From Streptomyces sp. SLBN-31 (GTDB lineage: Bacteria; Actinomycetota; Actinomycetes; Streptomycetales; Streptomycetaceae), in NCBI RefSeq assembly GCF_006715395.1, contig NZ_VFNC01000001.1, positions 744,001 through 808,000 on the forward strand: 64,000 nt of DNA, given 5' to 3'. Positions within the stretch are counted from its first letter, which is position 1; the number at the start of each line of letters is the position of its first letter. Under the pieces are notes generated by a model, which made no database searches, was not told where the DNA came from, and saw nothing but the letters and a program-made list of their open reading frames with translations. The position numbers and the translations under genes are program-made. Below are positions 21,421 to 48,561 of this stretch, one piece after another.

Positions 21421-21650
21421 ATCTTCCCTCCTCGACTCCATGCGCTGGCAGCTGCGATCGCCCACACTCCAGGCCACGCACTGCGGAACCTCACAAGTAG
21501 CAGCGTGAAGGCTGGAGGCTGGCGTTGCGGCCACATGCCCGGGATCTTCACTTGCACCACCGTTGATCGGCCGGCGGATCCGCCAAGGTCATTACGTAGC
21601 TAGCACGGGAGCACCGGCATTCGCCGCTCTCGGCCCAGCTGCAGATACGT

Positions 21651-21750
21651 GAAGACCCCGCACGCAGCGTTCTCGCTGGGGGCGGGGTCTCTAGGCACTT
21701 CAGTCGAAGTGCCCCCGGCAGGATTCGAACCTGCGCACACGGCTCCGGAG
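21651..21750 (-). repeat. Attachment site, left: 3' fragment of tRNA-Arg(CCG) plus its terminator
   Basis: Bases 21709-21750, read on the minus strand, are the last 42 nt of a tRNA: anticodon loop CTCCGGA, T-arm GCAGGTTCGAATCCTGC and acceptor CGGGGGC. The bases at 21751 and above do not complete the anticodon stem, so the 5' half is absent. The 42 bp recur identically at 48520-48561. Downstream on the minus strand is a terminator hairpin (AGACCCCGC 21653-21661, GCGGGGTCT 21682-21690), also present beside the other copy. I read this as the left boundary of element 1. Confidence 0.85.
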
Positions 21751-21887
21751 CCCATCAGAGACCGTTGCCCTTCTGGGCCGCTGATCAGCGGGGGAGGGAA
21801 GATCTCGATCTTGATCGAGCAAGGTCATTACGCCCCTATTACGTGGGCGGCCTGTTGACCGGTCGGCCTGGCCCGTATGGTCGAGGC

Positions 21888-25972: not shown

Positions 25973-26515
25973 CTACAGGCTGTCGATGATCGCCTTCCTT
26001 CGGTCCTGATATTCCGCATCAGTGATAGCCCCTGCGGCTCGCAGCTGGTCCAGCGTCGCGAGTCTGGATGCAACATCCTGACCTTGTACGGGAGTGGGCG
26101 CCGCCGCTGGTGCCGCGCCTGGCTGCGTTCCCTGAGCGATGTGCATGCGCAGTTTGTCAGCCATCGCTTTGCCCTGGTCCTTCGGCATGTTCTTGATGTC
26201 CGCGCGGTTCCCTGACGTGTATACAGTCAGCGTCCCCATCACCAGGCCACCGTGCCACTGCACCGAGGAGACCTTGCCGTAGGGGAAGTCCTCCACGGTT
26301 TGTGACATCACACCATGCTTAAGGAACAGCAGCCGCATGTTCGTCATCGCGACGATGCCCGTGCCGTTGGCGTACGTGCCTGTGGCGAGCATGTCGACGA
26401 GTTCGTCTTCCCATAGCACCTCGGGAAGTCTCTTGATCTCCCTCTTGGCGCCAAACGTGTTGCTCAGCTTCGCGGCAGCGGCATCGATGTCCGGCCGCAC
26501 ATTGAAGGTCGCCAT
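25973..26515 (-). CDS. PH-like (bPH) and SHOCT domain protein
   Basis: A 180-residue protein. Residues about 30-130 form a bacterial PH-like domain (TNMRLLFLKHGVMSQTVEDF, then YGKVSSVQWHGGLVMGTLTV). The last 35 residues are a SHOCT motif (RLATLDQLRAAGAITDAEYQ). AGAGGTG precedes the ATG at 26515. PH-SHOCT proteins are common in prophages and integrative elements and seem to mediate membrane or oligomer contacts; no enzymatic function is known. Confidence 0.82.
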   Translation of the reverse strand: MATFNVRPDIDAAAAKLSNTFGAKREIKRLPEVLWEDELVDMLATGTYANGTGIVAMTNMRLLFLKHGVMSQTVEDFPYGKVSSVQWHGGLVMGTLTVYTSGNRADIKNMPKDQGKAMADKLRMHIAQGTQPGAAPAAAPTPVQGQDVASRLATLDQLRAAGAITDAEYQDRRKAIIDSL

Positions 26516-27278
26516 CAGGCACCTCTCTCGAGACAGCAAGGTAGGCGAGGTCCTGGGCCTGGGGGGTTAGCTCGGTGCCCTCCGTGATCCACAATCATAT
26601 CGGTGCACCAACCCAACTGACCCAGATATGCAAGGGGATGGTTCGGTGAAGGGGCGGTTCGTGGCGGCCAGAACGCCAACTCGGGCGGACGCGGCGATGG
26701 ATCGCCACGAAGCCGGAGCCGGCGGAGCATCCTGCCTAGGACCACCGGTGTAGGGGGTTCGATCAGCAGCCAGGGAGCCTCCGACGCTCGCCAGATGTGA
26801 CGGCCACGAGAAGCCCCGTCCCGGTGTGCGTACTGCTGCTGCCGTTGATGTCAGTCGGCGAGGGCTGGCGCTGTCGTTTGTCCGACTGCCCTGCCAGAAG
26901 TAGGAGTTCGATCCGAGCTCGCTCCGGCTGCTGTCGGCGACGGGTGCGTCGGCCGGACATGGGTGCTGGTGTACACCCCCGTCCGGCGTCGTTGATGTCA
27001 GCAGTGAATGTCAGAAGCTTTCTGATCCGTAGCTCTACAGAGATCGGTCAGGGGGGTCATAGAGGTTGTTATTTGGTCCCTTAGGGTGACGGTTGGTCAT
27101 GGTCACTTGCTGTGGCTGCTGTACTTCGCTGCTGTACTGCTGGCCGCGAGCAGCAGCGCCCTGGCGAACGGCTTGGCCATGGTCTCCCTTGTGCGGGTGT
27201 TCCTCGGCGTCTATCGCACGCGCCGCAGGAAGGTCCGTCATACTGCGAGCACGCCATCAGGGATGAGAGGGCTGCGCG
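26516..27278. other. Intergenic stretch with hairpin/GATGTCA copy 2
   Basis: No convincing gene. One short frame at 27086-27298 (GTG start, 70 residues, hydrophobic opening LLWLLYFAAVLLAASSSALA) could encode a small membrane protein overlapping the next gene, but support is weak. At 26952-26965 and 26974-26987 lies an imperfect hairpin with loop CTGGTGTA, followed at 26989-27012 by GTTGATGTCAGCAGTGAATG. A third GTTGATGTCA is at 26846. Confidence 0.5.
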
Positions 27279-27623
27279 ATGACGGACGTAGTGAGTGACC
27301 GGACTACCATCACACCGGTCGCAGTTGACGGCGGCGTGCTGTACATCGAGGCGACGAGCCTTCACGGTGCCTCAGAGACGGGGGGCGGCACATGGTCCGA
27401 GGACGAGGAAGTTGCCAGCGTCATCCCCGACCTCAGCTCCGTCACCGCCGCGTTGTCCGGATTCGCGAGTCAGGTCACCCAGGCGCTGCGCCAAGCCAGA
27501 CCCGACAAAGTGACTCTGGAGTTCGGGTGTGAGCTGGCAATTGAACCTAGCGGACTGAGCGTTCTGATCGCGAAGGGCAGCGCCAAGTCGAATCTGAAGG
27601 TCACGCTGGAGTGGCAAGCGTAG
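27279..27623 (+). CDS. TRYPCO1 (CU044_2847-type) partner of the trypsin-NACHT protein
   Basis: A 114-residue protein. The core (LRQARPDKVTLEFGCELAIE, then SAKSNLKVTLEW) is the trypsin-co-occurring domain 1 signature, known in databases as the CU044_2847 family. Such proteins are nearly always next to a trypsin-like protease in actinobacterial conflict systems and are thought to be regulators or substrates of the protease. It ends nine bases before the protease-NACHT gene, so the two form an operon. ATG at 27279 is the only good start. Confidence 0.82.
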   Translation: MTDVVSDRTTITPVAVDGGVLYIEATSLHGASETGGGTWSEDEEVASVIPDLSSVTAALSGFASQVTQALRQARPDKVTLEFGCELAIEPSGLSVLIAKGSAKSNLKVTLEWQA

Positions 27624-27632
27624 GGGCACACT

Positions 27633-30600
27633 GTGAGTACGTCGGGCATTGCCGGTGCTAGCAGTTTGGAGACAGCATTCCGGACGGCGACTCTTGCCTT
27701 GACTGTCCGGACGGCGGGGGCTACCAAGTACGGCACTGGTTTCTTCGTCGCGCCTGGTGTGGTGCTCACCTGCGCCCACGTGGTTCTTGGTGCGGACGGC
27801 GAGTTGGCACCGGGGGTGGAGGGGCTCTGGAACGGTAAACAGCTTCGGCTGTCGACCGACCCGAAGGACATGCGACCATTTGGGGAGGGACAGGGCCCTG
27901 ACCTTGCCCTTCTTCGGGTCGCTTCTTCTGAGGCCCCTCACCCCGGGGTGTGCTTGGCCGTGCCTTGTGACCCTGGAGACGAACTGTGGGCCTTCGGGTA
28001 TCCCCAGACGGACTATCGGGGCGGAGATCCGCTCGCGTTTCGTTACGTGGGCGGCGGCTGGCATGTTGGCGGCGCGGCTCTCGACAAAGTTGCCGGTGGC
28101 CAGGTGTTCCCGGGGCACAGCGGTGCACCCGTGCTCAACAGGAGGACAGGGTGCGTGGCTGGCGTGATCCGAGCCCGTCAGCGTCCTCAGGCCGGGGCCG
28201 GTGAGGAGTATGGAGCCCGACTCATCCCGACGTCCGTTGTTTTGGACGCGTTTCCCGAGCTTGTAGAAGCCCGCGGGCAGGCGGTGTCCGACAACTGGGG
28301 CTGGCTCAGCCTCCTCGACGACGAACAGATCCGAGCAGGTGGTTGGTGCGCTCCTGGTCCCCGTTTGCGTGCCTATCTCTATGCCGCGCGGGAATCCGCT
28401 GACGAACATCCCTACGCTGCGGCACTTCCCGCTGCCGGAGACTTGTCGGCTGTCTACCTCGAACAGAGGCTCGCCCACGGACCAGAGGCAAGCAGTCCGC
28501 GCTCCTCGGGATCTTGGTCCTCGGAGGATGCCGCCTCACGGCGGTCCATGATGATGATGCGCAGACACATACGACTTGCGTTTGCCGGATACAAAGCCGA
28601 CCGCCAGCGGCAAAGCACCGAACCGGCGGGCGCCATCGACGAACCGGACTCGCTGGACACGGAGGACGGGCGACACGGCGTAGAAGGCGACACGACAGAA
28701 TCCACCTGGGCACCTATGACAGTGGGTGGGCTCCCGGAACTAGCACCCCATGCGCTGATCCTTGGTGGTCCCGGAGCTGGCAAGTCGAGCTTGCTACGCC
28801 ATATGACCACACGGCTCGCGTCCTCCTGGCTCGATCACCGTATGGGCGCCGCGGTGCCCGTACGGGTTCCGGCCGAGGCCCTTTCTGCGTCCACTAGCCT
28901 GTCGGAGGCGCTTCACGCCGCGGCGTGCGCGGACTTGGGGACGCGACTGCACTCTCCGCTGCCAGCAGATTTGTTCCAGGTGTCTCCGGTGCCTGGTGTG
29001 CCGTGGCTAGTGCTAGTCGACGGCCTGGACGAAATTCTCAGTCGTCGTGATCGCCGACGGGCTGTGCACGCGGTGATGGCTGCGGACCCACAGCGATATC
29101 GTTTTGTCCTGACGAGCCGGCCGTTGGACGAGGCCGAAACGCTGCTCTTGTGCCGCAAGGCACCAACGCACTGGCTTCAACCTTTCGACCACTCCGAGCT
29201 TCGTGTACTCGCCACCAAATGGTTCGAGGCAATGAACCTTTCCGGCACCGAGAGCCTTGCTGAGCGTTTTCTTGTCGAGCTGGACCGTGGTCGGCTTCGG
29301 GATGCGGCCCGGGTTCCGCTGCTCGCGACAATGGCCTGCCTGTTGTTCGGCCAGAGCGGGGATTGTCGTCTGCCGAGGAGCCGGGCGGAGCTGTATGAGC
29401 AGTTCACCGAGCTGCTCCTGGATGTCGAGCGAGAGCGCCTCGACCTGTATCGTCGCCTGCCCTCCCATGTGCGCCGCCAGGCAGGGACACGGGGGGAGGA
29501 GGCTGCCGAACAACTCATCTCCGGTGTTCGTGAGTTGATGGAGGAGATCGCCCACAGGCGCATTGAGGGGGACGCTCGACCGTTGTTGGACATCGCCGTC
29601 GAGGCCACAGACGGGCTACGGCCCGCAGGCCTGCCCGTTGGCCAATGGCGCGAAGTTCTCAGGGAACTGCTGCGTCAGAGTGGCGTTTTGGTCGAGCGCT
29701 TCGGAGTGTTCTCCTTCGTTCACGAGACTTTCGCTGAGTATCTGGCCGCCTGCCGGTACTGCCGGGAGGTTCCTCCGGATGAGGAGACACTGTCTCTTGC
29801 GGTTCTCCCCGACATGGAGTCCTTCGCCTTGTTCACGGCTGGGGTGTGGGCGCGCGAGGGCCATAACCTGGAGAGCCTCGTACTCGCTCTGCTGGCGCAC
29901 GGCACCCCGACCGCCCAAGAGGCGGCCGCTGCTTTGGCTATCGATGGGGTTCCACTGTCCGCTGGCGTGATCGAATGCGTGACTGAAGCGCTGGTTCGCT
30001 CTGCGACAGACCCGGACGTGCATCACGCGGATCAGCAACTGGCCATTTTGTATCTAACGGAGCTGGACCGACGTCGGGGAGCTGCCCTGATCGCTCGTCT
30101 CGCCGACGACGAGCGTTTTGGCTCCTGGGCTGCGCGATGGCTCGTCGACGTGGACCGGGAGCAAGGCATCGAGCTGTTGCGCCGCATGGCCGGTTCGGAC
30201 AAGCCTCACGACAAGCGGATCCATGCTGCACGACGACTTCTGGACGTCGACGCACAGTTGGGCGACGAAGCGCTTACAGCGCTGGCAAGTGATGACTCGG
30301 CGTCCCCGTACACCCGGACCATGGCGGCAGCCACGCTGGCTCGGACAGCCCCCGAGCGGTCGATGGCGTTCTTGCTTAGCTTCGCGGCCGATCGCACCGC
30401 GGAGCCTGGCGAACGCATCAACGCAGCTGTGGAGCTGGCTAAAGTCGCTCCCGATCAGGCAAAGGATGTACTTGCGACTCTGACCAACGACGAGGGCCTT
30501 TCCGTGTCGGACCGGCTCCGAGCTGCCACGGACCTTCACTCCGTCGATCCGGAACGAGCCGCCACTCTACTGCGTGTGTTCGCCACGGATCCGCGCGTTC

Positions 30601-30950
30601 CCTCGACCGATCGCGCGGACGCGGCCGGGTCCCTCCTTATGCGTGGCCATGAAGAACAAGGCGTTGCCCTGTTGGCGGAATTGGCCAGTGACCCAGCGAT
30701 CGAGTCGGAAGGCCGCGAGCGTGGCTTGATGTGGCTGATGGAACTCACCAGGGGAAAAGCCGCGGAACTCCTTGCCACCTGGTCGTCGGACCCGTCCCGG
30801 CCCGTAGAAGTACGTATCGAGGCCGCCGAGCGGCTGATGGATCTCGGGTCTCCACTCGCAACAGCGCACCTACAGGCCCTGGCATCGGACCCAGCCTTAA
30901 CTAGCCGCGAGCGCAGACGTGCGAGACGGGCCTTGAGCCGAGGAGAGTAG
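27633..30950 (+). CDS. Trypsin-like protease fused to a NACHT NTPase with helical-repeat sensor
   Basis: A 1105-residue protein starting GTG 27633. Residues 1-210 are a trypsin fold with a complete triad: His49 (LTCAHVV), Asp90 (PDLALLRV) and Ser163 (GHSGAPVLNR). Residues about 365-700 are a NACHT STAND NTPase: Walker A GGPGAGKSS (378-386), Walker B LVLVDGLDEI (459-468) and sensor FVLTSRP (491-497). The rest, from about 780, is HEAT/ARM-like helical repeats, the usual sensor part. The layout (effector, switch, sensor) is that of bacterial NLR-like immune proteins. Activation would unleash proteolysis, perhaps of the TRYPCO1 partner. Target and trigger are unknown. Confidence 0.85.
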   Translation: MSTSGIAGASSLETAFRTATLALTVRTAGATKYGTGFFVAPGVVLTCAHVVLGADGELAPGVEGLWNGKQLRLSTDPKDMRPFGEGQGPDLALLRVASSEAPHPGVCLAVPCDPGDELWAFGYPQTDYRGGDPLAFRYVGGGWHVGGAALDKVAGGQVFPGHSGAPVLNRRTGCVAGVIRARQRPQAGAGEEYGARLIPTSVVLDAFPELVEARGQAVSDNWGWLSLLDDEQIRAGGWCAPGPRLRAYLYAARESADEHPYAAALPAAGDLSAVYLEQRLAHGPEASSPRSSGSWSSEDAASRRSMMMMRRHIRLAFAGYKADRQRQSTEPAGAIDEPDSLDTEDGRHGVEGDTTESTWAPMTVGGLPELAPHALILGGPGAGKSSLLRHMTTRLASSWLDHRMGAAVPVRVPAEALSASTSLSEALHAAACADLGTRLHSPLPADLFQVSPVPGVPWLVLVDGLDEILSRRDRRRAVHAVMAADPQRYRFVLTSRPLDEAETLLLCRKAPTHWLQPFDHSELRVLATKWFEAMNLSGTESLAERFLVELDRGRLRDAARVPLLATMACLLFGQSGDCRLPRSRAELYEQFTELLLDVERERLDLYRRLPSHVRRQAGTRGEEAAEQLISGVRELMEEIAHRRIEGDARPLLDIAVEATDGLRPAGLPVGQWREVLRELLRQSGVLVERFGVFSFVHETFAEYLAACRYCREVPPDEETLSLAVLPDMESFALFTAGVWAREGHNLESLVLALLAHGTPTAQEAAAALAIDGVPLSAGVIECVTEALVRSATDPDVHHADQQLAILYLTELDRRRGAALIARLADDERFGSWAARWLVDVDREQGIELLRRMAGSDKPHDKRIHAARRLLDVDAQLGDEALTALASDDSASPYTRTMAAATLARTAPERSMAFLLSFAADRTAEPGERINAAVELAKVAPDQAKDVLATLTNDEGLSVSDRLRAATDLHSVDPERAATLLRVFATDPRVPSTDRADAAGSLLMRGHEEQGVALLAELASDPAIESEGRERGLMWLMELTRGKAAELLATWSSDPSRPVEVRIEAAERLMDLGSPLATAHLQALASDPALTSRERRRARRALSRGE

Positions 30951-31367
30951 TAGGAGGCCGCCCCGATTGCTGGTGTGTTGAAGAGGACTGTCCACGTGAC
31001 TGGGCTTCGTGGCGATGATCACCCCTCCTCGAATGCCGTTGTGGCATCACTGGGACGGTCGCCACGTGGGCTACGGCACCTCGCGAGCGCGTCTGCCACT
31101 GCTGATTCTCGACGCGGACGGCAACACGCTGGAGGCATGCACCGGCGTCCGGCAAACCCAATCGGGCCAAGCGCGACCAGACACCCGCTGAATCTCGCAC
31201 CGCCAACACGCTTTCCAATTGTGTTGGTGGGGCATTGGGCTTCGTGCAGGGGCGTTCACCTGCGTTCATGCGCGGCTGGCCTCTTGGAGACGGCTGGCGT
31301 CCGGTCTTGTCTGAACGGCCGTGAACGGGGCTGAATGAGACGGAAACCGAGACGGCCGCCCATGGTC
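30951..31367. other. Stretch without a supportable gene
   Basis: A 60-residue plus-strand frame at 31009-31191 (LWHHWDGRHVGYGTSRARLP) reads like protein, but I see no ribosome-binding site for its GTG. Otherwise nothing recognisable. Confidence 0.4.
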
Positions 31368-31790
31368 CTAGAGCTGACCTCGCCACCATGGCACGTCCAG
31401 GCTGTCAGCCGGGATGACCTTGGCCCTCGCCAGGATCTTCTTGTCGAGGGCCCACAGGACGGCGCGCAACTCACGGGCGCTCTTCCTGGGTAGTGCGTGA
31501 GGCACGGCTTCAAGGTGTCCGCGGAAGTCGACGCCATAACACCCGCACCCAAGGATGCCGCAATCAGAGTCCGCGAGTTGGTCCACGAGTTGCCTGAGAG
31601 GGCCATGGGCAAGGGCCTTCCAGTGCCAGAACGCTTCTTCCGTGGCTTCGGGCCAGAAGCGGGTCCGCTCCAGCCGGCGCAGGTCAGCTGTGCAAGATCC
31701 CGACAGGCCATCTATAAACGGGTACCGTCGCCGCCTCAGGAGGCGGATAGAGAGGTCGCCCCGCAGGGCTGATGGGCGCCTACGCGGCAT
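31368..31790 (-). CDS. Hypothetical protein
   Basis: A 140-residue protein starting at ATG 31790 with GAAGGGG six bases upstream. Composition is balanced and soluble (RFWPEATEEAFWHWKALAHG, then CGILGCGCYGVDFRGHLEAV), with three Cys clustered as CGILGCGC. No family is recognised. It stands alone between the NACHT gene and the AICE relic. Confidence 0.5.
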   Translation of the reverse strand: MPRRRPSALRGDLSIRLLRRRRYPFIDGLSGSCTADLRRLERTRFWPEATEEAFWHWKALAHGPLRQLVDQLADSDCGILGCGCYGVDFRGHLEAVPHALPRKSARELRAVLWALDKKILARAKVIPADSLDVPWWRGQL

Positions 31791-32438: not shown

Positions 32439-32748
32439 TGGTTCATGACTCCACCATCCAACGGCGGAACCGCATCGCATCCCGGCCAACGGCTCAGGAC
32501 CCCGCTGCGGGGCCCCGAAGGCACCGGGTGGGTGATAGGCGCAGCCGGCCGGAAAGGTCCGGTCAGGAATCTGTTGGCCACGTGGTCTCCGTGCTCGAAC
32601 TCGCCACCTGAACCCCGCATCGTGGACGCACGGACGTGCAGGTCGCTCCCTTACGGCCGGGATCTGTACATTTATACGCCAGGGCATACAGACTGCCAGG
32701 CGTGCCGACGGCCGCACCCGCCTTATGAACCTCGCAGGCGAGGACCCT

Positions 32749-35700
32749 ATGTTGGATTTGAGTGCGCCGATCCTCACTACGTTCCTCATATACGTGGCTG
32801 CCATGATCGGAACAGGCGTCTGGGCGTACACCCGCACTCACACCTTCGCCGACTTCGCCCTGGGTGGCCGCAGGCTCAGCGCGTTCGTCGCCGCCCTGTC
32901 CGCCGGGGCCAGTGACATGTCCGGCTGGCTGTTCCTCGCGCTTCCCGGAGCGGTGTACGCGGCCGGCCTCGGCGCCAGCTGGATCGCTGTCGGCCTGGTC
33001 ATCGGCACCTACCTCAACTGGCTGTTCGTCGCCCCCCGGCTGCGCACCTACACCGAGCGCGCCGAGAACTCCGTGAGCCTGTCGGCATACCTGGAGGAGC
33101 GGTTCGAGGACCGCACCCGGATGCTCCGGGTGGTGTCGGCTGCGGTCACCCTCGTGTTCTTCACCGTCTACGTGGCCAGTGGCCTGGTGGCCGGCGGGTT
33201 GCTGTTCAAGCAGGTCTTCGACATCCGTTTCGGGGTCGGGGTGACTCTGACCGCTTTGGTGATCGTCATCTACGCGTGCCTGGGCGGCTTCCTCGCCGTG
33301 AGCCTGACGCACGTCATGCAGGGCACCCTGATGTTCCTCGCCCTGCTCGTGGTCCCTCTGACCGGTGTCGCGGCGCTCGGCGGCTTCGGCGCGTTGCGCC
33401 ACGGCCTCGACGGCGAGGCGTCGCACCTGCTGGACATGGGGGCCCGGGTCGACTACGCGGACGGCCGGTGGTCGCCAGGCGGGTCGCTCGGCGCCGTGGC
33501 GACGGTCTCCTTGCTCGCCTGGGGCCTCGGCTACTTCGGCCAGCCGCACATCCTGGCCCGCTTCATGGGCATCCGCAGCACAGGTGCCATCCCCGCGGCC
33601 CGCCGTATCGGAACGGGATGGGTCATCGTCGTGCTCGCCGGCGCCACGCTCGTCGGCCTGGTGGGCATCGGGCGGCTCGGCACGCCGCTCAGCGACCCGG
33701 ACACGGTGTACATCGCCCTGACCCAGACCCTGCTCACGCCCTGGATCGCCGGCGTGATGCTGATCGCCGTACTGGCCGCGATCATGTCGACCGCGGACAG
33801 CCAGCTTCTCGTGTCGTCCGTCGCCCTCACCGAGGACTTCTACCGCGCGCTTCTCCACCGGCGTGCCGGGGACAAGGCGCTCGTGTGGGTCGGTCGCGGC
33901 GCCGTCGTCGTGGTGATCCTGGTGGCCTATGGGATCGCGCTCAGGGGCGGCGGGCTGCTGGACATCGTCGCGCACGCCTGGGCGGGTTTCGGAGCCGCCT
34001 TCGGACCGGTCGTCCTCCTCTCGCTGTACTGGCCGCGCATGACGTGGGCGGGGGCCATGGCCGGGATCGTGTCGGGCGCGGCCACGGTCCTGCTCTGGAA
34101 GAAGATCAATCCACTGCTCGGACCACTCGAGTCGGGCATCTACGAAATGGTCCCGGGCGTACTGGTCGCCACGGTCGCCGCACTGGTCTTCGGCAGGTTC
34201 GTCGGCCGACCACCGAAACGGGCCTTCTGGCGGATGCCGGGCGGAGGGACGAGCCAGCTGATGGGCACCCCGTTTCTCACTCACGCACCGGTCGGCATGG
34301 CCGTCCTGGACACGGATCTGCGCTACGTCTGGGTGAACGAGCCACTGGACCGCCTCATCCCCCTCGAGCAACGACTGGGGCGGCACGTGAGGGAGGTACT
34401 GCCGAGGCCGGAGGCGGAGGTGTTCGAGGAGCAGATGCGCAAGGTTCTCGAGACCGGGACCCCGGTGCTGGACCACGAGTACCGCGGTCCCAGTTACACC
34501 GACCCCGACCGCATGCGCGCGTGCTCCGCCTCCTTCTTCGGCATGAAGGACCGCAAGGGCCGGTACGTCGGCATCTCGTACATGGTCGTCGACGTCACCG
34601 AGCGCTGGCGGGCCCAGGAACGCCTGGCCCTGCTGAACGACGCGGGCGCGCGTATCGGCAGCACGCTGGAAGTGACGCGGACCGCGCAGGAACTGGCGGA
34701 CGAGGCGGTCCCGTCCGTCGCCGAGTTCGTCGCCGTCGACCTGCTGGACGCGGTCATGAGAGGCGAGGAGCCGGCCCCCGGACCGGTGGGCATGACGCCC
34801 GTCATACGCCGCGCGGGCCAGCAGTCGGTGCGGGAGGGCTGCCCGGAGGCGAGCCTGGCCGTGGGCGAGACGGTCCGGCGTGCCCCCTTGTCGCCGGTGA
34901 CCCGGTGCCTGCTGGAGAGCACCACCCTGGTGGAACTCGCCCTGGACCTCTCCTCCAGCGCCTGGGTGACCGAGGACGAGTCACTGGGAGCCAACCTCCG
35001 CGATTTCGACTTCCGCTCGCTGATGGTGGTCCCGGTTCGGGCGCGCGGCATCACCTTGGGCGTGGCGACGTTCGCCCGCACCGGGCGTACGGGCCCCTTC
35101 GAGGACGACGACGTGCGGCTCGCCGAGGAACTCGTCTCCCGTGCGGCCGTCGCCGTCGATAACGCGCGCCGCTACACCCGCGAGCGCACCGCGGCCCGCT
35201 CCATGCAGCGTTACCTGCTCCCTCAGGAGCTGACCGGAGGCTCCGCCCTGGAAGTGGCGTCCTGGTACCTGCCCGCGGATGCCCCCAGCGGTGTGGGCGG
35301 CGACTGGTTCGACGTGATTCCGCTCTCCGGAGCCCGGGTCGCACTGGTCGTCGGGGACGTCGTCGGACATGGCATGAACGCGGCGGCGACCATGGGGCGC
35401 CTGCGCACCGCGGTACGGACGCTCGCCGACCTGGACCTCCCCCCGGACGAACTGCTGGCCCATCTGGACGACCTGGTCATCGGCCACATGGGGGAGCAGG
35501 GCGGCGAGGAGTCGGCGGCGGCCGACGACGAGACCGCCGCCGCCGCATTCCTGGGGGCCACCTGCCTGTACGCCGTGTACGACCCCATCAGCAGACGGTG
35601 CACGCTGGCCCGCGCCGGCCACCTCCCGCCCGTGATTGTCGGCCCCGACGGCACCGCCGATGTCCTCGACCTGCCCGCCGGACCACCCCTCGGGCTCGGG

Positions 35701-36348
35701 TACCTCCCCTTCGAGTCCATCGAGGTGGAGCTGGCCGAGGGCACCCTCATCGCCCTCTACACGGACGGCCTCATCGAGACGTTCGACCGGGACATCGACG
35801 TAGGGCTCTCCCGGCTGGGCGACGCCCTCGCGGTGTGCGGGAAGGCGCTCGAGGAGATCGGCATGGGCGCGGTCGACGCCCTGTTGACGGGGCCGCCGTC
35901 CGACGACGTGGCCCTGCTCCTCGCCCGGACCCACGTCCTGGCCCCTGACCAGGCGGTCTCATGGCACCTGCCCAGCGATCCGGCCGCCGTCGCGGACGCC
36001 CGCGGCCTCGCCGTCCGGCAGTTGTCGGAGTGGGGCATGCTCGATCTGGCCTTCACCACGGAGCTCATCGTCAGCGAGTTGGTCACCAATGCCATCCGCC
36101 ATGCGACCGGACCGGTCTCCCTCCGCCTGGTCCGGGACCGCGGCCTGATCTGCGAGGTCTCCGACGCCAGCAGCACTTCACCGCGCCTGCGCCACGCCCG
36201 TACCACCGACGAGGGAGGGCGGGGCCTGCTGATCGTGGCCCAGCTCGCACAGCGATGGGGCACGCGTTACACGGCGACCGGCAAGATCATCTGGACGGAG
36301 CAGGTCATACCCGCCGACACGGTTGCCCATCCTGGTCCTACGGCATGA
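32749..36348 (+). CDS. SSS-family transporter fused to PAS, GAF, PP2C phosphatase and HATPase domains
   Basis: A 1199-residue fusion. Residues about 1-475 are a sodium:solute symporter (PutP-like) with around 12-13 helices (TFADFALGGRRLSAFVAALS, then ASDMSGWLFLALPGAVYAAG). A PAS domain (about 505-620), a GAF domain (about 625-810), a SpoIIE/RsbU-type PP2C phosphatase (about 822-1063; GVGGDWFDVIPLSGARVAL, then LYTDGLIE, then PSDDVALLLAR) and a serine-kinase-type HATPase (about 1068-1180; SELVTNAIRHATG) follow. ATG 32749 has GAGG upstream; an earlier ATG at 32725 does not. The design implies that transport or ligand occupancy controls an anti-sigma/STAS switch, as CbrA-type transporter-kinases do for phosphorelay. 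The partner is not nearby. Confidence 0.85.
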   Translation: MLDLSAPILTTFLIYVAAMIGTGVWAYTRTHTFADFALGGRRLSAFVAALSAGASDMSGWLFLALPGAVYAAGLGASWIAVGLVIGTYLNWLFVAPRLRTYTERAENSVSLSAYLEERFEDRTRMLRVVSAAVTLVFFTVYVASGLVAGGLLFKQVFDIRFGVGVTLTALVIVIYACLGGFLAVSLTHVMQGTLMFLALLVVPLTGVAALGGFGALRHGLDGEASHLLDMGARVDYADGRWSPGGSLGAVATVSLLAWGLGYFGQPHILARFMGIRSTGAIPAARRIGTGWVIVVLAGATLVGLVGIGRLGTPLSDPDTVYIALTQTLLTPWIAGVMLIAVLAAIMSTADSQLLVSSVALTEDFYRALLHRRAGDKALVWVGRGAVVVVILVAYGIALRGGGLLDIVAHAWAGFGAAFGPVVLLSLYWPRMTWAGAMAGIVSGAATVLLWKKINPLLGPLESGIYEMVPGVLVATVAALVFGRFVGRPPKRAFWRMPGGGTSQLMGTPFLTHAPVGMAVLDTDLRYVWVNEPLDRLIPLEQRLGRHVREVLPRPEAEVFEEQMRKVLETGTPVLDHEYRGPSYTDPDRMRACSASFFGMKDRKGRYVGISYMVVDVTERWRAQERLALLNDAGARIGSTLEVTRTAQELADEAVPSVAEFVAVDLLDAVMRGEEPAPGPVGMTPVIRRAGQQSVREGCPEASLAVGETVRRAPLSPVTRCLLESTTLVELALDLSSSAWVTEDESLGANLRDFDFRSLMVVPVRARGITLGVATFARTGRTGPFEDDDVRLAEELVSRAAVAVDNARRYTRERTAARSMQRYLLPQELTGGSALEVASWYLPADAPSGVGGDWFDVIPLSGARVALVVGDVVGHGMNAAATMGRLRTAVRTLADLDLPPDELLAHLDDLVIGHMGEQGGEESAAADDETAAAAFLGATCLYAVYDPISRRCTLARAGHLPPVIVGPDGTADVLDLPAGPPLGLGYLPFESIEVELAEGTLIALYTDGLIETFDRDIDVGLSRLGDALAVCGKALEEIGMGAVDALLTGPPSDDVALLLARTHVLAPDQAVSWHLPSDPAAVADARGLAVRQLSEWGMLDLAFTTELIVSELVTNAIRHATGPVSLRLVRDRGLICEVSDASSTSPRLRHARTTDEGGRGLLIVAQLAQRWGTRYTATGKIIWTEQVIPADTVAHPGPTA

Positions 36349-36360
36349 GGAGGCGACAGC

Positions 36361-37137
36361 CTAGCTGGGCGGCCACATCAACGAGCTTTTCGGCACCGAC
36401 CAGTTGAAACCGTTCTTCTCGCCGCGTCGGCCGGGGTGGTGCACCAGCATCCGGTAGATCAGGCGGGTCCGCTCGCCCGGCTTCGCGCAGACCATCCCGG
36501 CGACCGACACCCGTCCCGATCCCTGCCCCGACACGTTGACCTGCGGTGGCACTCCGATACGGGACCAGGTGCGGGCCTTGGGCGGACGCAGAGCCTGGCC
36601 CGACTCGTCCTCGAACACCAGCCACGCATCCTGCTCCCTCACCTTCTTTCCACGCGCGCCCAGGTCTCCTCTCGCCACACGCGTACCTGCTCCTCGTCCC
36701 GTTCGGCGGCCCGGTGCACCGGGACCTGGACGGAAAAGCCCATCTGCCTCAGGATCCTGGAGAGTGCGGCTGGCTGAAGCGCACATGGAAACGACGGGCG
36801 ACCAGCACCGAGACCCGAGCAAGCGTCCACAGCTGGTCTTCCGCCCAGCCGTGCGCAGCCGGCCCTGCTCCAACGCCCCAGCCAGCCAGGCCCGCCAGGC
36901 CGGCTTCATCCGCGAAGCCACCCCCGAGGGCCCCTTGGAACGCAGGGCGTCCATCCCGCCCTCCCGCCAGGCGGCATGCCAGGCATACGCGGACTTCCGC
37001 GACACCCGTAACGCCCGCGCGACCTGCGGCGGCTTCATGCCGGCCGCGAACATCCCGGCGGCCTGGAACCGGAACCGCACCCGCTCCCGCCTGTCCCGCT
37101 CCACCGCGGTCAGGCCACCCCCATCGGGATACCTCAT
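36361..37137 (-). pseudogene. Broken IS630-family transposase
   Basis: The N-terminal helix-turn-helix (AAGMKPPQVARALRVSRKSA, then YAWHAAWREGGMDALRSKGP) and a DDE block (AWLVFEDESGQALRPPKART, then WSRIGVPPQV) are present, as in IS630-type transposases. Between them the correct frame moves: QPAALSRILRQMGFSVQVPV is read in another frame around 36700-36780. After FEDES the end is lost; the DNA stops matching near 36360. So it has at least two frameshifts and a 3' truncation. No terminal repeats are seen. Confidence 0.8.
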
Positions 37138-38335: not shown

Positions 38336-38823
38336 GCGTGCTGGACAACCACTTTAGGAGAGAGGATGGGCGATCTTACGCCTGAGCTGCGGCTTTGCTG
38401 GCCGGCGAAGCGAGCCGCTACTCGACCGCAGAGCACTGGCGTTGACCGTGGCTGACCCCTGCATCTGGCACGGTTGTGGCACGGACCTCAGCCGACGACA
38501 GTGAGCCACGACGGCGGGTGCGCCGACCGACCAGGCGCGCGTGTGCCTCGCTGCACCCCCACCGGCGTCAGCCACGCTGCCGCTCGTATCGTCTTTGGCC
38601 CCGCCTCACGGCCATGACTTGAGGTTGACCTGCATGTCGCGCTATCCGCACAGGTCCAATGACCATCCGACATGCCGTAGACGCGAGAATGTGCTTCCCT
38701 ATTTGTATGCGCGTCCTCAAGGCGGACAGACGCTTCGGTGAAGCCAGCAAATGAGATTCCACGCTGGGGTTCTCGTTGTTGACACCGCCCAAGTGGGGGA
38801 CTTCGTTTGAAGGAATGAGAACC
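38336..38823. other. Intergenic stretch, no gene seen
   Basis: It contains the two-box TGGCACG sequence near 38465-38484 and marks a sharp change from GC-rich DNA to the AT-richer gene that follows. Nothing else is recognised. Confidence 0.5.
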
Positions 38824-41216: not shown

Positions 41217-41957
41217 CTACAGCCGGAACGACAGCTCCAACTCGTCGCCCGGTAGGTGGAACTCTTCCAGCGCCAAGGGCTTGTCCGCCTCCGCGAGCGT
41301 CACGCGGAGGACGTGTAGGAGAGGTACGCCATCCGCCAGTCGGAGCGCCTGGGTCTGGTCCGGTAGTGGCATGCGGGTGCGGACGTACTCCGTGAAGTGG
41401 AGTTCGTGGCCCAGGCCAGCGAGTGCGCTGTAGAGCTCCGGAGCTGGCGGCGGAGCCTCCTCCTCGTACTTGGTGTCGATCAGTACTGAGAACGGCACGT
41501 ACGTCCGGTGGAGCTGGCGGAGCCGGCCATGGTCGGCCGTCTGTAGGGCGTCGTACGTGAACATCGGCTCGCCCGGTGGGATGCGGAGTAGGTCCGCCAG
41601 GGCCAACGGGGCGTCGGTTCGGGTGGCTACGGGTGGCTCGGCGTCGGTCCAGCGGATGCCATCGGCCTCGATGTAACGGCCGTCGGGGGCCCGGCGTACG
41701 CCGCGCGGACGCGTGTGGCTCGGGCGGTTGTGGGGGGAGCGGGCGAAGGTGCCGCGGCCCATGATGGCCTCGACGAGACCGGATGCCCGTAGCTCGGACA
41801 GGCCCTGACGGACTGTGGGGCGCGTCACGCCGAACTGCTTCGCCAACGCCTCCTCCGACGGAAGCGGTTGGCCGGCCGCGAAGGTGCCGTCCAAGATGCC
41901 ATCGCGCAGGTAGTCGGCGATCTGCCGATACTTCGGCTGCGTGTTCTTCGGCGGCAT
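41217..41957 (-). CDS. GntR/HutC-family repressor of the AICE (KorSA-like)
   Basis: A 246-residue regulator. The winged helix (PLPSEEALAKQFGVTRPTVR, about residues 31-50) is followed by a UTRA ligand-binding domain (residues about 95-240). ATG 41957 has GGAGGG upstream and matches the family start (PPKNTQPKYRQIADYLRDGI). In pSAM2 the equivalent KorSA represses the activator gene and its own. Here the divergent promoter of the SCO3933-type gene contains two matching palindromes, so the same circuit is likely. Confidence 0.88.
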   Translation of the reverse strand: MPPKNTQPKYRQIADYLRDGILDGTFAAGQPLPSEEALAKQFGVTRPTVRQGLSELRASGLVEAIMGRGTFARSPHNRPSHTRPRGVRRAPDGRYIEADGIRWTDAEPPVATRTDAPLALADLLRIPPGEPMFTYDALQTADHGRLRQLHRTYVPFSVLIDTKYEEEAPPPAPELYSALAGLGHELHFTEYVRTRMPLPDQTQALRLADGVPLLHVLRVTLAEADKPLALEEFHLPGDELELSFRL

Positions 41958-42049
41958 GTGGGCCCTCCGTGGCCGTGGCTTCTGCGGCTGTTCTTCGTCG
42001 TAGACGGCGTGCCCACGATCGTGGACAGCTTCTCGCATCGCTGAGTCTG

Positions 42050-42104
42050 TTGACAACCCGTACTACGGGTTGCACTCTTGTCTGCGTCACCCGTACTACG
42101 GGTG
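42050..42104 (+). promoter_or_regulatory. Promoter with twin palindromic operators (element 1)
   Basis: TTGACA (42050-42055), a 17-base spacer and CACTCT (42073-42078) form a plus-strand promoter. The palindrome CAACCCGTA-C-TACGGGTTG (42054-42072) fills the spacer; a second, CACCCGTA-C-TACGGGTG (42088-42104), lies 33 bases further, about three helical turns. The likely ligand is the GntR protein at 41217. Element 2 has the same layout at 60427-60471. Confidence 0.75.
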
Positions 42105-42159: not shown

Positions 42160-42507
42160 GTGGCAAGCCTTCCGATCGACACCGCGAAGTTCACGGGGAT
42201 CATCTGCGCCGTACCTCCGGCTCCGCGGGTCGCCAACCGAGAGACCGGTCAGCTTCGCGTCGACCGCGAGACCGGCAAGACCATGTATCAAGTCGGGCTC
42301 TGCCTGATGGCCGGGTCGTCGGCGGACGTCGTGAACGTGAGCGTGGCCGGCGAACCGAGTGGCGTGCAGCTCGGCATGCCGGTGGCCGTGCGGGACCTGG
42401 TCGCGACGCCGTGGGAGAACGAGGGGCGGCACGGGATCGCGTTCCGTGCTGCGGAGATCCGGCCCCTGAACGCTCCCGCGCCGGCGGGTAAGGGGGCCGC
42501 GCAGTGA
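42160..42507 (+). CDS. SCO3933-family AICE regulatory protein
   Basis: A 115-residue protein, GTG 42160 with GAGGAG about ten bases upstream. The C-terminal part (LGMPVAVRDLVATPWENEGR, then HGIAFRAAEIRPL) is the family signature, shared with the gene at 60578 and the relic at 32178. It is the first gene of the AICE transfer/replication operon and its exact function is not established. It is under the twin-operator promoter. The stop overlaps the next start. Confidence 0.8.
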   Translation: MASLPIDTAKFTGIICAVPPAPRVANRETGQLRVDRETGKTMYQVGLCLMAGSSADVVNVSVAGEPSGVQLGMPVAVRDLVATPWENEGRHGIAFRAAEIRPLNAPAPAGKGAAQ

Positions 42508-43826
42508 TGAACCTGGCCTCCACCACTTCGGCCGGTGCGTCCGGGCCGAATTGGGTTCTGGTGGTGGCCGCAGCACTGGTGTCGGGCCTGCTCCTGGCAG
42601 GCCCGGCCCTGCGCGGCCGCTATCCCGTTGCCGGGTGGTTGTTACTCGGCTTCCCGGTCGCCGTCTTCCGCGTCATGCGGACCTGGCGGCAGCTGATGGC
42701 CGGGTGTGGGCTCGCCGTCAGTCGGCGACCGGCGCTGATGGTCGTGTCCGGGCTCGTCGGCAATGGAGCGCCTCCGCCTCAGCCGCGGGTCCCGCGTCGC
42801 GGGCTCATACGCCCGACCTCCGGCGGCTTCGTGCTGCTGGTACGGCTGTTGCCGGGCCAGGTGCCGGAGAACTTCGTCAAGGCTGCGCCCGCCATGGCGG
42901 AGGACTGGCAGGTTCACGCGGTGCGCGTGACCTCCTGGAAGCCGGGGGTCGTGCGGATCGTCGCCTCGGCCGCTGACCCGTTGGCGGCTCCGCGGATACC
43001 GAAGCAGCGGGGTCCTGGCCATCTGCTCCGGGTGACCGTGGGCGCGCTGGAGACCGGTGCCGCGTGGGTGCTCGACCTGCGACGCGTGCCGCACTGGCTG
43101 ATCGTGGGCGCCACCCGTTCCGGCAAGTCCACGCTGATCAACGCTCTCGTCGCGGGGCTGGCTCCGCAACCCGTCGCCCTCGTCGGCATCGACTGCAAGG
43201 GCGGCATGGAACTGTCCCTCTACGAACTGCGGTTGTCCGCCCTCGCGACCAACCGTGAACAGGCAGTGCGGCTACTGGCCGCGCTCGTAGACCTGACCCT
43301 CGACCGCATGGCGGTCTGTCGCGCGGCTCGTGTGCGCAATATCTGGGGTCTGCCGGACAAGGAACGCCCGGTCCCTGTCGTCGTGATCGTCGATGAGCTG
43401 GCGGAACTGTTCCTCGTCGCGAACCGGAACGAGAAAGACGAAGCTCAGGCGGCCGGTACGGCGTTGATCCGACTTGCCCAACTCGGCGCGGCCCTCGGGG
43501 TGTTCCTCGTCGTTGCCGGCCAACGCGTCGGCTCCGACCTGGGGCCCGGTGTCACCGCCCTGCGGGCACAGCTCGGCGGCCGTGTCTGCCATCGCGTGGC
43601 CGACCCCGGTACGGCCGAAATGGCGCTCGGGGATCTGAATCCCGACGCCCTGAAAGCGGCGCAGGCCATCACCCCGGAGCAGGCCGGTACGGCCGTCCTC
43701 GCCTCCGGCGACGGCTGGGAGCGGGCCAGGTCGCACCTGATCACGGAGGCGGAGGCAGAAGCCGTCGCCGCCGAATACGCGCACCTGACTCCCGTCCTGT
43801 CCGAACTGCTCGTCGACGCACGGTGA
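42504..43826 (+). CDS. FtsK/SpoIIIE-type conjugal DNA translocase (TraSA-like)
   Basis: A 440-residue ATPase. Two hydrophobic helices lie near the N-terminus (residues about 10-55). Walker A is VGATRSGKSTL (about residues 206-216) and Walker B is PVVVIVDELAELFL. In pSAM2-like elements such a single protein moves double-stranded DNA between mycelial cells. GTG 42504 overlaps the previous stop; ATG 42507 is equally possible. All motifs are intact, so transfer may still function even if replication does not. Confidence 0.9.
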   Translation: MMNLASTTSAGASGPNWVLVVAAALVSGLLLAGPALRGRYPVAGWLLLGFPVAVFRVMRTWRQLMAGCGLAVSRRPALMVVSGLVGNGAPPPQPRVPRRGLIRPTSGGFVLLVRLLPGQVPENFVKAAPAMAEDWQVHAVRVTSWKPGVVRIVASAADPLAAPRIPKQRGPGHLLRVTVGALETGAAWVLDLRRVPHWLIVGATRSGKSTLINALVAGLAPQPVALVGIDCKGGMELSLYELRLSALATNREQAVRLLAALVDLTLDRMAVCRAARVRNIWGLPDKERPVPVVVIVDELAELFLVANRNEKDEAQAAGTALIRLAQLGAALGVFLVVAGQRVGSDLGPGVTALRAQLGGRVCHRVADPGTAEMALGDLNPDALKAAQAITPEQAGTAVLASGDGWERARSHLITEAEAEAVAAEYAHLTPVLSELLVDAR

Positions 43827-44721: not shown

Positions 44722-46093
44722 CCACGACCCTCACGAGGAACGCCGCCGCTCTGGTCGCCAGGGCATCTGAGGCGGACTTCGCGGCCTGGCGCCGGAACAT
44801 CGTCCGCCTCGGTGGCTGCAGCAACCCGATCCACCTGGTCGGTGCGGCGACCGTCTACGACACAACTACGGGCGCGGCCCTGCTCTCCTATGGGTCGGAC
44901 CTCTACGGCGGTCGCCTTCTTGTCGCATGCGGCAATCGGCGCGCGACAGTCTGCCCGGCCTGCTCGGGTCTGTACCGGGCGGACACGTATCAACTCGTCC
45001 GGGCGGGCTCGTCGGCGGCAAGAACGTCACGGAGGCGGTGAGCGCGTTCCCGCGCGTGTTCGCCACCCTCACCGCTCCCAGCTTCGGCTCAGTCCACACA
45101 CGGCCGGAACGCGACGGGCGCGTACGTGCCTGTCGTCCCCGTCGGGCGGGGGAGTCGTGTCCCCATGGCCGGCCGACTGGATGCCTTGAGCGTCACTCGA
45201 CGAACGATCTCCGTCTCGGCGAGCCGCTCTGTCCGCACTGCTACGACTACGCGGGCGCTGTCCTCTGGCACGCGTTCGCCGGTCGGCTCTGGCATCGGTT
45301 CGGTTTGGAGCTGCGGCGGGACGTTGCTCGGCGTGTTGGGGTGTCGCGAACGGAGTTCGGGGAAGTCGCCCGACTCTCGTACGCCAAGGTCGCCGAGTAC
45401 CAGCGGCGCGGTCTGGTCCACTTCCATGGCGTGATCCGCCTCGACGGACCGGAGGGGCCGGACTCACCCCCGCCGGGCTGGGCGACTGTGCCACTGCCAC
45501 TCCTGATCGATGCCGTACGGGAGGTGGCCGGTCGGGTGCGGCTGGCCGCTCCGGGCGCGGACATCGTCGGCCCGCGGGAGCTCCGCTTCGGAACGCAGGT
45601 CGACGTACGACCGGTCACCTCGTACGAGCGGGATGCGGGGGAGCGTCCTGCCTCCGCGGCGGCTGTGGCGGGCTACATCGCCAAGTACGCCACGAAGGGA
45701 GCGGAGTCCGCCGGCGCAGTGGACGGCCGGATCTACCACGTGCGGGACATGGTCATGCTGCCTGTGCGCGCACACGTGCTGCGCATGATCGGTACGTGCT
45801 GGTGGCTCGGCGGTCTGCCGGAGTTCGAGCCGCTCGGGCTGCGTCGTTGGGCCCACATGCTCGGGTACGGCGGGCACTTCTCCACCAAGTCACGCCGCTA
45901 CTCGACCACGCTGACAGCGCTCCGGCAAGCCCGTGTCGATCACCGTGCGGAGCAACAACGGACGTCGCTCGGCCTGGTCGGCGGCTCGACTGTCACGGTC
46001 GGCGAGTGGCGTTACGCGGGACGTGGCTATTCGCCCGCGGCGGCGCTCCTTGCCGCTTCCGTGCGGGAGGGCGGTGGTCTCCATGGCGCGTGA
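44718..46093 (+). pseudogene. RepSA-like rolling-circle replication initiator, single frameshift
   Basis: Two frames join into one 458-residue AICE initiator. The first ends in RADTYQLVRAGS; the second continues LVGGKNVTEAVSAFPRVFAT. Inserting one C at about 45006-45008 restores the frame exactly. The downstream frame keeps the HUH-type motif (GLVHFHGVIRLDG) and the Tyr region (AGYIAKYATKGAES). The element would replicate as a circle by this protein, so the frameshift would disable it. The site is a short GGGC run, so a sequencing error is possible. Confidence 0.82.
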
Positions 46094-46295
46094 CAGCCGC
46101 GCAAAGACGGCCGAACTGCTCACGGTCCGCCAGGTGCTCGACGAACTGGGCGGCGTCTCCCGACGAACCTTCTACCGCTGGCGGGAACTGCGACTCGCTC
46201 CGTCCTGCATACGGCTCCCCAATGGGGAGCTCCGGATTCGGCGGGACGTGCTCAACGACTGGCTGGAGGACCGGGCGGAGGGGGCTGCGTCGTGA
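46083..46295 (+). CDS. xis: Excisionase (MerR-like HTH, Xis)
   Basis: A 70-residue protein starting ATG 46083, overlapping the initiator end by 11 bases. The winged helix-turn-helix is plain (ELLTVRQVLDELGGVSRRTF, then LPNGELRIRRDVLNDWLE). Small proteins of this type direct integrase towards excision. Its stop overlaps the integrase start by GTGA, the usual AICE arrangement. Confidence 0.85.
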   Translation: MARDSRAKTAELLTVRQVLDELGGVSRRTFYRWRELRLAPSCIRLPNGELRIRRDVLNDWLEDRAEGAAS

Positions 46296-47677
46296 AGTCG
46301 TACAAGGTTTCTGTCTGGAAGATTTCCGTCAACAAGACCACCAAGAAACCGACGTACCTGGTCCGCTGGGTTGTCGACGGACAGCCGTTCAGCGAGTCGT
46401 ACAAGACCAAGACGCTGGCTGACCGCTTCCGCGCGAAGCTGGTGCGGGCGCTCGACAAGGGTGAGCCGTTCGATACGGTCACCGGTCTGCCCGACTCGCT
46501 GCGCGGGGGCAAGGCTGCCCTGTCGTTCCTCGACTTGGCGGTGAAGTACCTGGACGCACGTTGGCCGGAGGCCTCGGCCAAGCAACGGGACAGCATGACC
46601 GATGCACTGGCGACGGTCGTTCCCGTTGTGGTCAAACCGGCAAGGGGCAGGCCTGCTCCGGAGGTGCTTCGGAAGGCGTTGCGCTCGTACGTCCTGCCGG
46701 TTCCGCGCAGGGAGCGGGAGCGACCCGAGGAGATCGACGCGGCCGTGCGGTGGATCGAGAAAGCGTCGCTTCCGGTGGGGGAGCTCCAGGAGATCACCCG
46801 GGTACACGAGCTGATCGATGCGCTCGGCCGGAAGCTGGACGGTAAACCGGCTGCGACCCAGACGTACCGGCGACGGCGCGCGGTGGTGTTCAACGCCCTT
46901 GAGTACGCAGTGGAGTTGGAGCATCTTCCGTCGAATCCGTTGACGCGTGTCCGGCGCAAGCGCGGGAGACGGGCGGTGCAGGAGGTTGACCGCCGGGTGG
47001 TGGTCAACCCTCGGCAGGCTCGGGAGCTTCTGACTGCGCTCACGTACGTGGGCGGCTACGACCGGGCGAGCGGTCGGCGGCTCCGGGCGTTCTTCGGGTG
47101 CCTGTACTACGCGTCGATGCGGCCGGGGGAGGCGCTGGGGCTTCGCCATTCCGACTGCACGCTTCCGGCGTCCGGCTGGGGCCGCATCGAGCTGGCGGAG
47201 ACCCGTCCCACAGCGGGCAAAGCCTGGACTGACTCCGGCGAGGCTCACGATCGTCGCGGCCTGAAACAGCGAGCCCACGGTGAGGTGCGCATCGTGCCGA
47301 TACCGCCCCCGCTCGTGCGCCTGCTCCGTGAGCATCTGAAGGAGTTCGGCACCGCGAAGGACGGCCGGCTGTTCTCCAGCGAGCGGGGCAACGTGATCGC
47401 CGCATCGTCGTACTCCCGCGCGTGGAAGCAGGCTCGTGAACTGGCGCTCGTCCCCGACCAGGCCTCCTCGGTCCTGGCCTTCCGGCCGTACGACCTCCGT
47501 CACGCGGGCGTTTCCCAGTGGCTCAACTCCGGCGTCCCGGCCCCGGAAGTCGCTGCCCGCGCCGGCCACTCGGTCGACGTCCTTCTGAAGATCTACGCCA
47601 AGTGCATCGACGGCCAGGAGGAGGAGATGAACGACCGAATCATGCAGGGCCTGGGGGAGGAGGATTCCACGGACTGA
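46292..47677 (+). CDS. int: Tyrosine-recombinase integrase
   Basis: A 461-residue integrase. The C-terminal catalytic domain has Arg (YASMRPGEALGLRHSD), the H-x-x-R-type box (RPYDLRHAGVSQWL), a G-H motif (ARAGHSVDVLL) and the nucleophile Tyr (LKIYAKC). The N-terminal part includes SAM-like core-binding helices. It lies about 840 bases from the right tRNA-Arg fragment, as AICE integrases normally do, so the 42-bp core is its likely crossover region. Motifs are complete; integration or excision activity is plausible. Confidence 0.92.
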   Translation: MKSYKVSVWKISVNKTTKKPTYLVRWVVDGQPFSESYKTKTLADRFRAKLVRALDKGEPFDTVTGLPDSLRGGKAALSFLDLAVKYLDARWPEASAKQRDSMTDALATVVPVVVKPARGRPAPEVLRKALRSYVLPVPRRERERPEEIDAAVRWIEKASLPVGELQEITRVHELIDALGRKLDGKPAATQTYRRRRAVVFNALEYAVELEHLPSNPLTRVRRKRGRRAVQEVDRRVVVNPRQARELLTALTYVGGYDRASGRRLRAFFGCLYYASMRPGEALGLRHSDCTLPASGWGRIELAETRPTAGKAWTDSGEAHDRRGLKQRAHGEVRIVPIPPPLVRLLREHLKEFGTAKDGRLFSSERGNVIAASSYSRAWKQARELALVPDQASSVLAFRPYDLRHAGVSQWLNSGVPAPEVAARAGHSVDVLLKIYAKCIDGQEEEMNDRIMQGLGEEDSTD

Positions 47678-48310: not shown

Positions 48311-48461
48311 TCCGACCGGTCCACAGGTAGTCCACACGGCTTCGCTGCGAGGTGCGAAGAACGCCCTCTGACCTGCCGTGAAGTCCCTCAAGATCAAGAC
48401 GCTATTACAGCGTGATCACTGTCAGACGGCTGCTTGCGACGGCATCCGCCTGCATACACGC

Positions 48462-48561
48462 GAAGACCCCGCACTCAGCGAATGCGCTGATGGCGGGGTC
48501 TTTAGGCACCTCATTCAAGGTGCCCCCGGCAGGATTCGAACCTGCGCACACGGCTCCGGAG
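48462..48561 (-). repeat. Attachment site, middle: second tRNA-Arg(CCG) 3' fragment plus terminator
   Basis: Bases 48520-48561 equal 21709-21750 exactly. The 58 bases before them align without gaps to 21651-21708, with the same terminator arms (48464-48472, 48493-48501) but a different loop. The sequence at 48562 and above does not supply the tRNA 5' half. Interpreted as the junction between tandem elements 1 and 2. Confidence 0.85.

Follow-up and report, generated by a model that had tools for sequence, protein, structure and literature searches.

The analysed window, a stretch of 64,000 nucleotides from Streptomyces sp. SLBN-31 (positions 744,001 to 808,000 of contig NZ_VFNC01000001.1), contains two co-directional open reading frames (ORFs) on the forward strand, in the same frame and with nine bases between the stop codon of the first and the second gene. 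The first (27279..27623) encodes Trypco1, of 114 amino acids, and the second (27633..30950) is a single ORF for a trypsin-NACHT-HEAT protein of 1105 amino acids, defined by Pfam and by predicted structure. An earlier sequence-only reading had described this architecture, a protease joined to a NACHT and to helical repeats with a Trypco1 gene nine bases upstream, and Pfam and a check of the residues bear it out; the positions it gave for the catalytic residues His49, Asp90 and Ser163 and for Walker A (378-386) and Walker B (459-468) are all correct.

The HtrA/trypsin-like protease domain comprises residues 15-213 (27675..28271, forward strand as are all parts of this gene), with the catalytic codons at 27777-27779 (His49), 27900-27902 (Asp90) and 28119-28121 (Ser163). 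It is followed by a conserved helical linker (residues 216-285, 28278..28487), a poorly conserved loop that is mostly of low confidence in the model (residues 286-360, 28488..28712), the NACHT NTPase with both Walker motifs (residues 366-540, 28728..29252), a helical and presumed winged-helix part with the invariant H697 (residues 541-716, 29253..29780), and HEAT-type helical repeats up to the C-terminus, presumed to be the sensor (29781..30947). The Pfam matches are Trypsin_2 (3.3e-12), HEAT_2 (5.9e-8) and NACHT (6.9e-6), the last marginally under its curated cut-off. The linker seems to be part of the NACHT chassis, since its profile also matches many relatives without a protease.

The triad and G381, G383, K384, S385, D463, E467, R496 and H697 are invariant across an alignment of 56 sequences; H697 we take to be the winged-helix histidine of the NACHT STAND switch. 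The triad columns hold His, Asp and Ser in 119 of the 120 homologues listed (249 were found), the sole departure being P0118, which has gaps in place of both the His and the Asp. An Arg at the place of the Asp in locus L069, given by a narrow-profile alignment, was taken as an alignment slip; the ORF reads LDVAVL there. The motif around the Ser differs among homologues (PGFSGAP, GGYSGSP, PGMSGAP, PGHSGAP and others), and GHSGAP, which the sequence-only reading set against the usual GDSGGP, is therefore ordinary for the family and no notable departure.

The predicted structure of the large protein (predicted local distance difference test, pLDDT, 86) is similar to NLRP3, NOD2 and NLRC4 and to Deg/HtrA proteases. 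As regards a CARD-like N-terminal bundle, the modelled structure starts near residue 12 and has helices at 208-257. The NACHT has Walker A, Walker B and the winged-helix histidine of a NACHT STAND protein, and an N-terminal effector and C-terminal repeats give the layout of a NOD-like receptor (NLR), in which the repeats would do the sensing. Matches in PADLOC are weak (RT-Protease_XI 4.8e-6, mads_8 2e-5, Avs1b 0.034). Taken together, sequence and model indicate that the protein is most likely a bacterial NLR-like (STAND) switch carrying an HtrA-like serine protease.

Trypco1 owes its name to co-occurrence with trypsins. The protein encoded here matches PF19493 with E 4.7e-19 and 69.2 bits (curated cut-off 24.6) and NF041216, the CU044_2847 family, with 61 bits (cut-off 23). 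No enzyme domain was recognised in its approximately 100 residues by Pfam or profile comparison, and its profile gave nothing below E 0.06 against the PDB. The available portions of the literature using the word Trypco contained no functional data on Trypco1. A shared origin of Trypco1 and the second partner type, Trypco2, found no support in profile comparison (probability 0.8%; in a second comparison 5.2% local, 1.4% global). One TAG and three codons (27621-27632) separate Trypco1 from the same-frame protease gene, and a read-through of this TAG fusing the two proteins into one chain is conceivable from the frame. A scan of 26500-31400 found no sigma-70-like promoter site, and no Rfam family reached the gathering threshold across 20000-50000.

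Trypco and the protease domain in related loci

Loci with NACHT relatives were taken as the best 80 of at least 118 from a contig scan, found with motifs of both protease and NACHT. Protease calls were made with local profiles; the broader profile, built partly from the same loci, gave 31 of 80, while a narrow one gave 26 of 80 and missed the Trypco2-type proteases. Two genes are split between frames, L065 being counted with protease (its first part) and L041 without. Trypco1 adjoins 21 of the 31 protease-bearing loci and Trypco2 seven, with neither in three, and none of the 49 protease-free loci has a Trypco of its own. The lone Trypco2 near L039, a locus with no protease in the NACHT gene, abuts a separate trypsin gene. 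With L039 counted against the association, the comparison of 28/31 with 1/49 gives p 4e-17 (Fisher), for loci that are related and not independent.

The genes are not always arranged in the same way. Of the 21 Trypco1 genes, 14 lie upstream and co-directional, three are divergent and four are downstream and convergent, and Trypco2 is upstream of the protease gene in 7/7; because the orientations differ, the link between Trypco and protease is more than one inherited operon. In two loci (L020 and L023) the main gene adjoins Trypco1, and another trypsin gene, farther away, adjoins Trypco2; L060 contains a pair of protease-NACHT genes, of which one is accompanied by Trypco1 and the other by Trypco2.

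The tree of 85 protease rows shows a clade of 33 rows, all with Trypco2, apart from the rest (99 in the Shimodaira-Hasegawa-like approximate likelihood ratio test). Among the 79 labelled rows (43 Trypco1, 36 Trypco2) two changes of partner are needed, compared with at least 19 in 300 label shuffles. NACHT-borne proteases are found on both sides of this tree, and the ORFs of many other rows end at the 1.5-kb flank. A single NACHT family carries a protease, a Cap4-type nuclease or a helix-turn-helix (HTH) domain as N-terminal module. On the NACHT tree (81 rows) a four-state label for this module needs at least 11 changes, compared with at least 24 in 200 shuffles, and the modules have therefore been exchanged, but not freely. 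This exchange and the NLR fold back the description of the protein as immune-like in the sequence-only reading. The separation of protease from NACHT descent rests on the protease-free rows, which are interspersed among the others and all without Trypco. In 21 pairs, the Trypco1 distances correlate at 0.873 with those of the protease and at 0.816 with those of the NACHT (partial correlations 0.58 and 0.27).

In four loci (L032, L037, L041 and L067) the protease region is shrunken, and its alignment shows another residue or a gap at each of the three triad positions; no Trypco is present in any of these loci. They form a branch with support 94, which lies in a clade (98) where the remaining five rows carry Trypco1. 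This suggests that the Trypco partner was dispensable once catalysis was gone.

Searches starting from the partner included the 31 best-scoring same-genus loci for Trypco1 and 30 same-genus loci for Trypco2. A trypsin lies within 1.5 kb of Trypco2 in 27 of 30 loci and of Trypco1 in 19 of 31; in larger stretches of the other 12 Trypco1 loci it was found 4-5 kb off in two and not recognised in ten, one of which has a stretch extending just 2.4 kb upstream. A protease of this kind thus usually implies a Trypco, while Trypco1 does not imply a trypsin.

Most likely, Trypco1 serves the protease domain, and not the NACHT module, as a dedicated partner. A number of points weigh against this. The sample of NACHT loci was restricted in number and drawn by motifs of both domains, three protease-NACHT loci (L047, L064 and L079) have neither Trypco, and a strict tie of Trypco1 to trypsin had to be rejected because of the ten loci in whose stretches no trypsin was recognised. 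Considering the Trypco1 and Trypco2 rows alone, the NACHT tree also needs just two changes, and partner type alone therefore cannot separate protease from NACHT descent. The difference between the distance correlations is borderline (bootstrap 5-95% -0.002 to 0.164). The four dead proteases all sit in one branch and thus probably go back to a single loss; L041, which is among the four, is moreover a gene split between frames. The predicted fold of Trypco1 is poor (pLDDT 58, predicted template modelling score 0.44) and consequently gives no docking argument for a complex with the protease.

The three loci with neither Trypco have a convergent downstream gene in common (L047 11343-12654, L064 11382-12969, L079 11972-12514), which is possibly an alternative partner; two of them also have a membrane-protein gene. 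Three of the Trypco1 loci without a recognised trypsin nearby (L168, L169 and L170) each have a very large ORF, and the C-termini of these ORFs are alike.

Instead of regulating the protease, Trypco1 could be the substrate of that protease. In Avs1 and HamMAB the N-terminal trypsin-like protease is set off by oligomerisation and cleaves a partner encoded upstream (PMC12799240). As in those systems, partner and protease co-occur here, 21 of the 28 Trypco-bearing loci having the partner upstream of a switch that begins with the protease, and a substrate would also vanish with catalysis, as in the loci with dead proteases. This alternative is a serious one, though somewhat doubtful: Trypco1 has only about 100 residues and no recognised enzyme domain, no cut site was identified in it, and its genes occur without a recognised trypsin nearby. 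A regulator or specificity factor acting on the protease is slightly favoured, as a matter of judgement, because Trypco1 is small, without an enzyme-like domain, and exists without a nearby trypsin.

The integrative element and the relatives of the pair

Two tandem pSAM2-type elements are inserted at tRNA-Arg(CCG), at 21.6-48.6 kb and 48.5-68.6 kb. A 112-bp repeat is present at 21639-21750, where it is the left attachment (att) repeat with the 3' part of the tRNA gene, and at 48450-48561, between elements 1 and 2 (87% identical). It recurs at 812471 of contig C1, and the intact tRNA-Arg(CCG) is found beyond the window at 812540-812613 of the contig (L133:12541-12614). The tRNA-Ile given by ARAGORN at 21709-21795 (reverse strand) is actually the att copy of tRNA-Arg(CCG). 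Element 1 encodes a GntR-UTRA regulator (41217..42056, reverse strand) and, on the forward strand, an FtsK/TraB-type transfer protein (42504..43826; PF01580, E 8e-30), a RepSA-type replication initiator (44927..46093; PF20199, E 7e-123) and a tyrosine integrase (46292..47677; PF00589, E 2e-11). With its tRNA att repeats and these genes it has the make-up of a pSAM2-type actinomycete integrative and conjugative element (AICE). In element 2 RepSA was found with 1.5e-147 and an integrase-like gene fell below the Pfam cut-off.

Genome G014 contains a 14.6-kb sister element, similar to the window at both ends (74-75%) and different from it in the middle; the Trypco1-protease pair has no DNA match in it, and the ORFs listed for it include none of this kind. 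Since the sister keeps the backbone with other cargo, the pair is cargo, in an element that is longer (27 kb) and of mixed content. The AICE location proposed in the earlier reading was thus confirmed by the att repeats, integrase, RepSA and TraB. The portable anti-phage defence that the same reading suggested is more conjectural, as the phage collection gave no relative and the flanks of the 80 related loci (up to 8 kb on each side) gave no homologue of the integrase, RepSA, TraB or GntR at E <= 1e-10. Such a location also allows the explanation that the pair serves the element, by excluding or killing cells that receive competing elements or by making loss of the AICE costly, and both the stacking of two AICEs at one tRNA gene and the exchange of cargo on a constant backbone would agree with it. 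We find it unlikely, as 0/80 related loci have homologues of the integrase, RepSA, TraB or GntR of element 1 (E <= 1e-10) in flanks of up to 8 kb on each side, in a search that did not include other kinds of mobile element.

Other genes in the two elements were noted. Element 1 has a sodium:solute symporter fused to PAS, GAF, SpoIIE and HATPase (32725-36348, forward strand) with a high GC content at third codon positions (GC3, 0.90), an adjoining transposase-like ORF (36361-37137, reverse strand), and a pentapeptide-repeat protein (38776-40830, forward strand) whose GC3 of 0.55 is low compared with most ORFs of the window and which is perhaps a recent import. Element 2 has a GmrSD_N/NsnA-like gene (49477-50499, forward strand; PADLOC NsnA, E 8e-27) and a weakly matching SRA-domain gene (51270-52595, reverse strand), a candidate restriction-type defence cargo. 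A 178-bp direct repeat, 83% identical, has one copy in each element (40862-41039 and 56440-56617).

Of the homologues listed, those with a name come from actinobacteria (Streptomyces, Amycolatopsis, Nonomuraea and others), and the closest known relative among them, 84% identical, is from one strain, Streptomyces sp. NPDC002676. Its Trypco1 counterpart is 83% identical and comes from a contig of equal length, and the pair has therefore probably been kept together there. All parts of the protein are about equally close to this relative (trypsin 82%, NACHT 86%, HEAT 85%), and nothing at this distance points to a sensor that evolves fast; across the wider family the HEAT part is less conserved. 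In six relatives (P0089, P0105, P0110, P0115, P0119 and P0120) a RelA/SpoT-type or HD-type domain is found in the same protein as the trypsin, three of them also having a NACHT; the domains are a candidate link to alarmone metabolism.

The pair looks rare. DNA matches were found in 63 of 294 other same-genus genomes, with none above 188 bp among the matches listed and only two candidates scored per genome. A protein search of 60 relatives gave matches in 24 of them, none of full length. No relative was found in the phage collection, and none of the 18 records from the plasmid search had 80% query coverage. This rarity, with the closest known relative in a single strain, argues against a signalling or developmental STAND regulator with no role in conflict. 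Actinobacterial STAND proteins do include regulators, and several of the NACHT relatives bear HTH domains in place of the protease; all the same, we judge this explanation to be quite improbable.

Proposed mechanism and comparison with known systems

Our preferred reading, which we hold to be reasonably probable, is that the large protein is an NLR-like sensor for abortive infection, its effector being the protease, with Trypco1 as dedicated partner of the protease. The resting protein would be an inactive monomer. Recognition of a sign of invasion by the C-terminal HEAT repeats would lead to nucleotide exchange in the NACHT and to oligomerisation, by which the protease domains would be brought together and switched on. 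Proteolysis would then stop or kill the cell, and such abortive infection would protect clonal kin and the element. This order, in which HEAT senses, NACHT assembles and the protease fires, is taken from analogous STAND proteins (PMC12169576) and from Avs1 and HamMAB (PMC12799240). As first choice Trypco1 would regulate the protease by binding to it, either to keep it inactive before assembly or to supply its target; as second choice it would be the substrate of the protease.

Several described systems are similar in part. Trypsin domains are among the effectors linked to STAND proteins, the NACHT clade included (PMC8195603), and the bNACHT and Avs proteins follow the common plan of effector, STAND NTPase and C-terminal sensor (PMC12169576); the effector of bNACHT25/32 is a DNase, whereas here it is a serine protease with Trypco1. 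Avs1a/Avs1b and HamMAB (PMC12799240) share with this locus an N-terminal trypsin-like protease on the switch and a partner gene just upstream, a pair common to several systems; in having a STAND protein that starts with a trypsin-like protease, the locus agrees with Avs1. Their partner is a metallo-beta-lactamase-type pro-nuclease, in contrast to the small, non-enzyme-like protein found here; such a nuclease had no Pfam match in the 24 ORFs of element 1, and the upstream gene is Trypco1. CARD-NLR and LypABC (PMC13236601) also couple an NLR-like switch to trypsin-like proteases, there with several proteins and a CARD-like domain, as compared with one protein and Trypco1 here.

Kaur et al. (2020, PMC7159879) described Trypco1 and Trypco2, which exclude each other next to VMAP trypsins. 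Trypco pairing was there described for VMAP proteins, whereas the protease here is fused to NACHT-HEAT, and VMAP-C, MoxR ATPase and vWA protein were all absent from the Pfam scan of the 24 element 1 ORFs. Elsewhere in the same genome (L134) Trypco1 is encoded together with a trypsin-VMAP-C protein, a MoxR-like AAA ATPase and another protein of 1091 amino acids, a likeness to the VMAP ternary system with trypsin and Trypco1 (PMC7159879). The pairing with NACHT-HEAT and the absence of Trypco with dead proteases are not described in the available parts of the Trypco literature; supplements were not included, and an earlier listing is possible. What appears to be new in this analysis, as far as gene neighbourhoods indicate, is that Trypco follows the protease rather than the NACHT. 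In the literature listed, the name EruA is used for an unrelated E. coli regulator.

Trypsin-like protease and Trypco1 or Trypco2 may together form a portable two-part cassette, repeatedly plugged into immune switches (NACHT, VMAP), with the partner kept only while the protease is alive. We put this forward tentatively and somewhat short of probable, because the two partner types need just two changes on the NACHT tree as well. If it is true, the Trypco proteins would form a novel class of partners dedicated to proteases in bacterial immunity, a parallel to the Avs1 and HamMAB pro-nucleases but not the same as these. The name Trypco1 becomes a testable claim, namely that the partner accompanies the live protease irrespective of the switch into which this is built. 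If the claim holds, Trypco1 would show how bacterial NLR-like proteases are restrained or what they cut, the missing step in these systems.

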